From NCBI GenBank assembly GCA_019636285.1, contig JAHBXV010000014.1, positions 62,001 to 126,000 on the forward strand: a DNA stretch of 64,000 nt, read 5' to 3'. Positions within the stretch are counted from its first letter, which is position 1. The number at the start of each line of letters is the position of its first letter. The DNA is from Planctomycetaceae bacterium. GTDB lineage: Bacteria; Planctomycetota; Planctomycetia; Planctomycetales; Planctomycetaceae. The position numbers and the translations under genes were made by a program. The notes beneath the pieces were generated by a model, which did no database searches, was not told the origin of the DNA, and was given only the letters and a program-made list of their open reading frames with translations. Positions 3,524 through 61,720 of the stretch are shown piece by piece.

Positions 3524-3607
3524 CCCGCGCGGTCGTCAGCGTCAGGATGAGAAGGAAGCGAATCCGATAGACCAGGGTTCGCTGCCCTCCCCTTTCCGCA
3601 AGATTCC

Positions 3608-3679
3608 AACACAACCTCCGTGCAATGACGGTTTGCCTGGCTCCGCGGTTTTTCTGACAGGCACGACCGTTGCGTGAGG
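3608..3679 (-). repeat. Dispersed 72-77 bp element, copy A
   Basis: Read on the minus strand, this block aligns with the copies at 34570-34646 and 61628-61701. Shared parts include the terminal GGAGGTTGTGTT-type end, an inner GCAAACC/CAGGCAAAC block, and CGTGCCTGTC shared with copy B. On the plus strand it starts with AACACAACC and ends near GTTGCGTGAGG, an imperfect terminal inverted repeat. It fills most of the gap between nfeD and floA. Confidence 0.7.
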
Positions 3680-3696
3680 AATTCGAAGGATTTTTC

Positions 3697-5477: not shown

Positions 5478-5498
5478 ACTTCGCCGACTGGATGCAGG

Positions 5499-5584
5499 AC
5501 CGTCAAAACCTTCTAGACGTCCGAAATATCCCTGAATTTATAGAGGTTTCCGAGCCGCCATCCGGGTTTTGACGGAGGCTCATG
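5499..5584 (+). repeat. Dispersed 86-bp element, copy 1
   Basis: It aligns without gaps to 61536-61621, with 71 of 86 positions identical by my count. It begins with CCGTCAAAACC (5500-5510) and ends with the exact reverse complement GGTTTTGACGG (5565-5575), then GAGGCTCATG. An inner dyad GAGCC...GGCTC is kept in both copies. It lies immediately before the glycosyltransferase gene. Confidence 0.8.
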
Positions 5585-34511: not shown

Positions 34512-34569
34512 GCGAGTTGCCTTGTTTCCGAAGGTTTTGGCCCGCTTCGGGATCATGAAAGTGAGAATT

Positions 34570-34646
34570 CCGAACACAAGCAGTTGTGCCTGTCGGAAAC
34601 CTGCCGAGCACTTGGCAAACACTTCTCGGCACAGAGGTTGTGTGAG
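34570..34646 (+). repeat. Dispersed 72-77 bp element, copy B
   Basis: It aligns without gaps to 61628-61701 with 54 of 74 positions identical by my count, including an exact CACAGAGGTTGTGT end. It begins with ACACAAGC and ends with GGTTGTGT, an imperfect terminal inverted repeat. It lies just downstream of the flp terminator. Confidence 0.75.
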
Positions 34647-34665
34647 AATGCAAAAGACACAGCAG

Positions 34666-61377: not shown

Positions 61378-61434
61378 GATATCCCGATCTCGATTCCCGT
61401 CACGCGGCGGCGGCCCTGGCAAGCTGCTCGCTTC

Positions 61435-61512
61435 GTGTGCCACCGGCTATGCCAGTGGGCCCGTTTAGCTGATCGTTCCTAACAATAGGCACTGGCGGAG
61501 CCAGTGGCACAC
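61435..61512. repeat. Inverted pair of CACTGGC palindromic elements
   Basis: GTGTGCCACCGGC...GCCAGTG (61435-61458) is an inverted, slightly diverged copy of CACTGGCGGAGCCAGTG + GCACAC (61489-61512). Each copy is itself a palindrome, and the two can pair over about 23 bases. A further copy lies at 40984-41007. Confidence 0.75.
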
Positions 61513-61535
61513 GACCCATATCTCTATCGTGTAGT

Positions 61536-61621
61536 ACCGTCAATACCCTCTGGACGTCCGATATGTTCCTGAGCTTGCAGGGGTCTTCGAGCCGCCAACC
61601 GAGTTTTGACGGAGGCTCATG
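61536..61621 (+). repeat. Dispersed 86-bp element, copy 2
   Basis: The partner of 5499-5584. The last 19 bases, from TTTTGACGG to CTCATG, are identical in both. Terminal repeats CCGTCAATACC (61537-61547) and AGTTTTGACGG (61602-61612) are diverged (9 of 11 paired). A CCTG/CAGG inner stem is present at 61568-61581. Confidence 0.8.
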
Positions 61622-61627
61622 AGAAAC

Positions 61628-61701
61628 CCTGACACAACCGATTGCGCCGGTTAGCAACCTGCGGAAGACCAGGCAAACGCTTGATTGCACAGAGGTTGTG
61701 T
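61628..61701 (+). repeat. Dispersed 72-77 bp element, copy C
   Basis: It has perfect terminal repeats ACACAACC (61632-61639) and GGTTGTGT (61694-61701), plus an inner GGTT-AGC-AACC stem. It lies 6 bases after the 86-bp element and 19 bases from the stop of the fusion-protein gene. Confidence 0.78.
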
Positions 61702-61720
61702 TAAGACTTCTAACAGAATA

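Follow-up and report, generated by a model that had tools for sequence, protein, structure and literature searches.

Short intergenic repeats of a Planctomycetaceae genome with features of IS5-type MITEs and a conserved two-part core on different ends

What are the related short stretches of DNA that lie between genes at three places in a 64,000-nucleotide segment of a Planctomycetaceae genome (the window, meaning the whole stretch of DNA that was analysed), and how did they come to be dispersed? The original prediction described them as a dispersed family of three copies (A, B and C) of 72-77 bp and left a choice between MITE-like elements, REP-like elements and a structured RNA. We confirmed that the three copies exist and are relatives, with B and C on the forward strand and A on the reverse strand; B and C align with each other without gaps over the whole element and have GCACAGAGGTTGTGT in common. 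The stated extents were too short, as the full coordinates below show. Within what we call the main subfamily these three copies belong to the more decayed ones, and two window members of a sister subfamily had been overlooked. The features of the window are as follows.

61621-61713, + strand: copy C, main subfamily (96.1 bits with model R1, 77.8 bits with model R2)
61620-61622 and 61711-61713: target-site positions of copy C, TGA and TAA, a duplication decayed at one base
61623-61710, + strand: copy C, element proper
61628-61639, + strand: copy C, left stem arm (TIR), alignment A3 columns 10-21
61638-61646, + strand: copy C, left core piece, consensus CCGGTTGTG, here decayed to CCGATTGCG; 98% identity between subfamily consensuses
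61690-61695, + strand: copy C, right core piece CAGAGG; 100% identity between subfamily consensuses
61694-61705, + strand: copy C, right stem arm (TIR), alignment A3 columns 79-90
34563-34655, + strand: copy B, main subfamily (62.2 bits with model R2)
3597-3686, - strand: copy A, main subfamily, strongly decayed (36.3 bits with model R2, 64.9 bits with model R1)
61529-61619, - strand: subfamily 3 element, TIR GAGCCTCCGTCAAAACTCGG, head to head with copy C (96.1 bits with model R3)
5491-5583, - strand: subfamily 3 element, TIR GAGCCTCCGTCAAAACCCGG (98.2 bits with model R3)
61432-61509, no strand assigned: another dispersed repeat, uninterrupted (GTGCCACTGGC ... GCCGGTGGCAC), an empty site; elsewhere in the genome this repeat is split by main-subfamily elements

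The family is far larger than three copies. With copy C as query, 40 further places in the genome were found at 75-88% identity, and the palindrome CACAACCGGTTGTG occurs 95 times with at most one mismatch, compared with no occurrence of its reversed control. A profile search of the genome, proposed beforehand as the test of the family, gave a number of copies far above chance: a covariance model built from 44 copies recovered about 108-110 distinct copies of the main subfamily in the 6.37-Mb genome (G000). The main element, with a consensus of roughly CTTAGAAnCCCTAACACAACCGGTTGTGCCTGTCAGAAACCTGCGGAACACCGGGCAAACACTTCATTGCACAGAGGTTGTGTTAGAATCTCTAAG, is about 88 bp long, below the 300-bp limit for MITEs, and like them lacks coding capacity and has a high copy number. 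Two sister subfamilies, 2 and 3, account for about 115 further copies in G000, two of them within the window. Copies of subfamilies 2 and 3 are mutually more alike than those of the main subfamily, and one subfamily 3 copy is nested in a main-subfamily element, which points to more recent activity of subfamily 3.

Restriction of the element to its source genome was ruled out by relatives in other genera. Model searches detected diverged and often high-copy relatives in 14 of 170 genomes of the same bacterial family, representing 10 genera. Of 397 genomes of the class, 19 matched a cross-genus model, every strong match lying within the same family, and the core pattern gave 26 matches among 84,980 genomes, all in records labelled as planctomycete bacteria. 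Viral contigs and plasmids held no match to the patterns or query used. We found no description of this element family in the open-access literature, and Planctomycetes are absent from a 2024 review of prokaryotic MITEs (PMC10969869).

These repeats are very probably non-autonomous DNA transposons (MITEs) of the IS5 kind, as indicated by their TIRs, target duplication and empty sites and by the match of sister-subfamily TIRs to IS5-family elements, and would be moved in trans. The TIRs are imperfect, 17-19 bp long, and bound the ~88-bp element; the arms are perfect over 11 pairs in 44 of the 108 copies in G000. The target duplication for which the original prediction had proposed to look is a 3-bp TNA. 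Its central base is the same on the left and right in 68 of 108 copies, while 40.9 are expected by permutation (z 6.3), and in two other genera (G095; G099, G101, G102) it agrees in 38 of 52 cases compared with 21.8 expected (z 5.3). Left and right agree far less at the positions adjoining the TNA centre. This sets the length of the element at about 88 bp, with a 3-bp copy of TNA on either side. The target mostly lies in a CTNAG context, and the left TNA is unrecognisable in 58 of the 108 G000 copies because ends have decayed or borders were misplaced.

Empty sites, as used here, are uninterrupted copies of a host repeat within the same genome together with one nested insertion. Five copies of the element lie inside another dispersed repeat (GTGCCACTGGC ... 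GCCAGTGGCAC), and when the element and one TNA are removed, the flanks align across the junction to uninterrupted repeats including the one at 61432-61509 of the window. In locus L303 (G000 C63), at about 301-391, a subfamily 3 copy with AAG on either side is nested in a main-subfamily copy, and its excision in silico restores a normal main element. Two insertions, together with their flanks, are common to G099 and G101. The host repeat itself is a pair of GTGCCACTGGC-type hairpins separated by about 30 bp (window 61432-61509, L026 1705-1800, L149 9535-9632, L140 2535-2625), and has received at least five independent-looking insertions at almost one position between its hairpins. A copy in L105 (G101), at 1501-1600, sits inside yet another palindromic repeat (GTGTCTCCGTGGTG ... 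CACCACGGAGACAC).

Gene calls were made with a simple codon-usage predictor and the statistics cover the fetched regions; by this measure 104 of 108 copies are intergenic. The 3' ends of genes facing the element are near (medians 21 and 30 bp) and 5' ends are farther away (66 and 100 bp). Reconstruction of empty sites places the insertion exactly at a stop codon in 16 of the 50 copies with a scorable left TNA. The background in the same sequences is 7.7% of non-coding TNA sites, 6.7% for YTNAR and 17.9% for CTNAG. The stop is kept after insertion because TAA and TGA are themselves TNA and are duplicated. Selection against gene damage may be sufficient to produce this preference. Action as a Rho-independent terminator was rejected, since inspection of aligned copies revealed no T-tract after the stem.

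Head-to-tail pairs of main-subfamily copies about 90 bp apart were seen in four G000 loci (L037, L035, L139 and L122). Such pairs could have arisen because the ends of the element are similar to its own target site (CTTAG/CTAAG). Read on the opposite strand, the right flank of the pair in L035 (G000 C27) looks like the 3' portion of a tRNA gene (GGACTTGAACC).

Potential partner transposons were sought through PF13340 transposases and relatives of one of them, and their ends were then examined. A 925-bp IS in L247 (G116) has a TTA/TTA duplication and the TIR GAACCTATCCGAAAACCGG, matching the ends of elements in G095 (GAGCCTATCCGAAAACCGG). IS in L267 and L268 (G143, G153), with TAA/TAA and the TIR GAACGCCTAACAAAACC, match the element ends in G099, G101 and G102 (GAACCCCTAACAAAACC). 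In two cases the TIRs of element and IS agree almost letter for letter, and the IS is flanked by a perfect TNA duplication. L171, in this genome, has the TIR GAGGCGGTTTCAAAAC and a TA in CTAG and matches subfamily 2, and L179 (G107), with the TIR GAGCCGCCGTCAAAACC, matches subfamily 3, the duplication of which seems to be 3 bp (CAT, CAA, CTT). The best IS matches for two subfamilies were found in other genomes of the bacterial family and not in the element's own genome, which counts against this reading. The transposase in L247 belongs to the IS5 family (NF033580 at 231 bits, cut-off 110; PF13340; PF01609), and the identity of its TIR suggests that this IS is a partner of the elements. L268 has an ORF of 268 aa within its TIRs, and L171 has two overlapping ORFs.

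Neither this genome nor the fetched relatives yielded an IS with the main-subfamily TIR (CTRACACAACC); we infer its partner from the sister subfamilies for this reason, while movement by IS5-family transposases is well supported for the superfamily as a whole. A crude pattern scan of about 1 Mb of fetched loci gave no evident autonomous form, in which the core would flank a transposase gene. DDE_Tnp_4 (PF13359) was rejected as the transposase since it had no match in seven genomes.

In the mechanism that we propose from these sequence comparisons, an IS5-family DDE transposase encoded elsewhere would recognise the paired TIRs and, working in trans, would insert the ~88-bp unit at TNA, with a preference for CTNAG, and duplicate the TNA. 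The insertions that survive would mostly be intergenic ones or ones falling exactly on a stop codon, which the duplication of TAA or TGA would restore. The main subfamily would have an IS5-type partner, as its sisters appear to do. A two-part core would be needed for amplification of the element and not for regulation of host genes, perhaps because a host or transposition factor binds it or because it folds at the base of the hairpin. Different TIR classes would have carried it, which would imply movement by different IS5 transposases.

This core is the unusual part of the elements. When ten subfamily consensuses were compared, CCGGTTGTG was 98% identical and CAGAGG 100%, compared with 49% for the outer stem and 38% for the middle. 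One core was found on at least four TIR classes, and in this genome alone its pieces occur with three: CTRACACAACC (about 108 copies), and GTTTCAAAACCC and CCGTCAAAACCC (about 115 together). Our search models include the core, so that elements having lost it would escape, and our claim is confined to the recurrence of the core on different TIRs; other elements may exist. Small elements with the same kinds of TIR (GAGCCTATCCGAAAACCG; GAACCCCTGACACAACC), unrelated interiors and no core were seen at about position 1501 in L194 (G033) and L195 (G192), from other families of the class.

These findings suggest a modular element that changed partner transposases, and a core that has a job of its own, for which we favour a role in amplification. 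Selfishness alone leaves unexplained why the core has outlasted the TIR sequence. The core might be an independent functional module, either RNA or single-stranded DNA folded into a motif or a site bound by a dedicated factor, near-invariant over about 10 genera, with ends replaced to fit resident IS5 transposases; we advance such an "end-swapping" MITE superfamily tentatively, as less than an even prospect. Another possibility within the MITE reading, which we give a real though minority chance, is that no swap took place: starting from a single ancestral MITE-IS pair, TIRs and transposases drifted together over a long time, and the core was retained. Such co-divergence would account for the loose pattern common to the TIR classes (GAnnnn ... 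AAAACC), and it agrees with all the partner IS found being of one kind (PF13340/IS5) and with AACCGGTT adjoining the TIR of the L247 IS as it does in the elements. It fits less well with the coexistence in one genome of three TIR classes with core pieces, with similar TIRs on the small elements of L194 and L195 having other interiors, and with the IS ends that were checked, in which the core words CCGGTTGTG, GGTTGTGC and GCATCAGAGG are missing.

The core pieces, distant in sequence, face each other in the predicted fold, and one could imagine an RNA transcribed with neighbouring genes, in which a protein or ligand binds a conserved internal loop (CGGUU / CAGAG) closed by the stem, mobility being a mere route of spreading. 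We regard this as improbable: possible but unsupported. The RNA covariance test suggested beforehand did return strong covariation. The 12-pair stem is 93.9% paired across 45 sequences, 10 of its 12 pairs have changes on both sides, and its score of 0.594 compares with 0.153 when shuffled and at most 0.125 when slid; folding z-scores were -2.7 and -2.0. However, each arm is also a transposon end matching IS TIRs, which explains the covariation and deprives it of force as proof of RNA function. Among single G000 copies there are 32 G-U-type and 28 A-C-type mismatches in all, and G-U being no commoner than A-C, there is no visible strand-specific constraint on pairing in that genome; the excess of G-U-type over A-C-type in other genera (19 to 3) falls mostly at one column. 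Rfam gave no match in the window at the gathering threshold and none on the elements of seven loci at E <= 5, and no tRNA was detected in the window. Orientation in co-directional contexts is weakly biased (42 to 26), and interior structure is not conserved between genera. Dispersal of REP/BIME-like palindromes by a RAYT (Y1) transposase is very improbable: the repeats are palindromic, intergenic, high in copy number, tend to lie just after genes and occasionally form tandem pairs, yet they form units of about 88 bp, bounded by TIRs and a TNA duplication, and not 20-40-bp palindromes, and their ends are of the DDE-transposase type and match IS5 elements.

As IS5-type MITEs, the repeats can be compared with several known systems. 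IS5-family IS (NF033580; PF13340 with DDE_Tnp_1) have the TIRs of the sister subfamilies and the TNA target (or TA in CTAG), but are about 870-930 bp long with a transposase, whereas the elements here are about 88 bp and noncoding with a core that the IS lack. The closest mechanistic parallel is RUP of Streptococcus pneumoniae, an element of about 107 bp with about 108 intergenic copies and TIRs that match a resident IS (PMC2229807), which is similar in size, copy number, intergenic location and IS-matched TIRs. RUP differs in its IS630-type partner and TA target, and no conserved core on different TIRs is reported for it. Correia/NEMIS elements of Neisseria are likewise short, high-copy elements with TIRs, and their internal site for a host protein (IHF) is a possible parallel for the core here; their TA target, unrelated sequence and occurrence in one genus set them apart (PMC2229807). 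For QMITE1 of Coxiella burnetii the ends have been described as variable and the core as conserved, but in one species (PMC5896051), while here about 10 genera retain the core, on several TIR classes with matches to different IS.

The usual definition of a MITE rests on its ends, and the interior is treated as disposable; in the elements described here it is the ends that vary and a small interior motif that stays. Several end types now have a matching IS5 element, which opens to direct test the proposal that a MITE may change its transposase and retain a functional core. For this planctomycete, the element superfamily accounts for well over 200 dispersed intergenic repeats of the genome and reveals an insertion habit that preserves stop codons.
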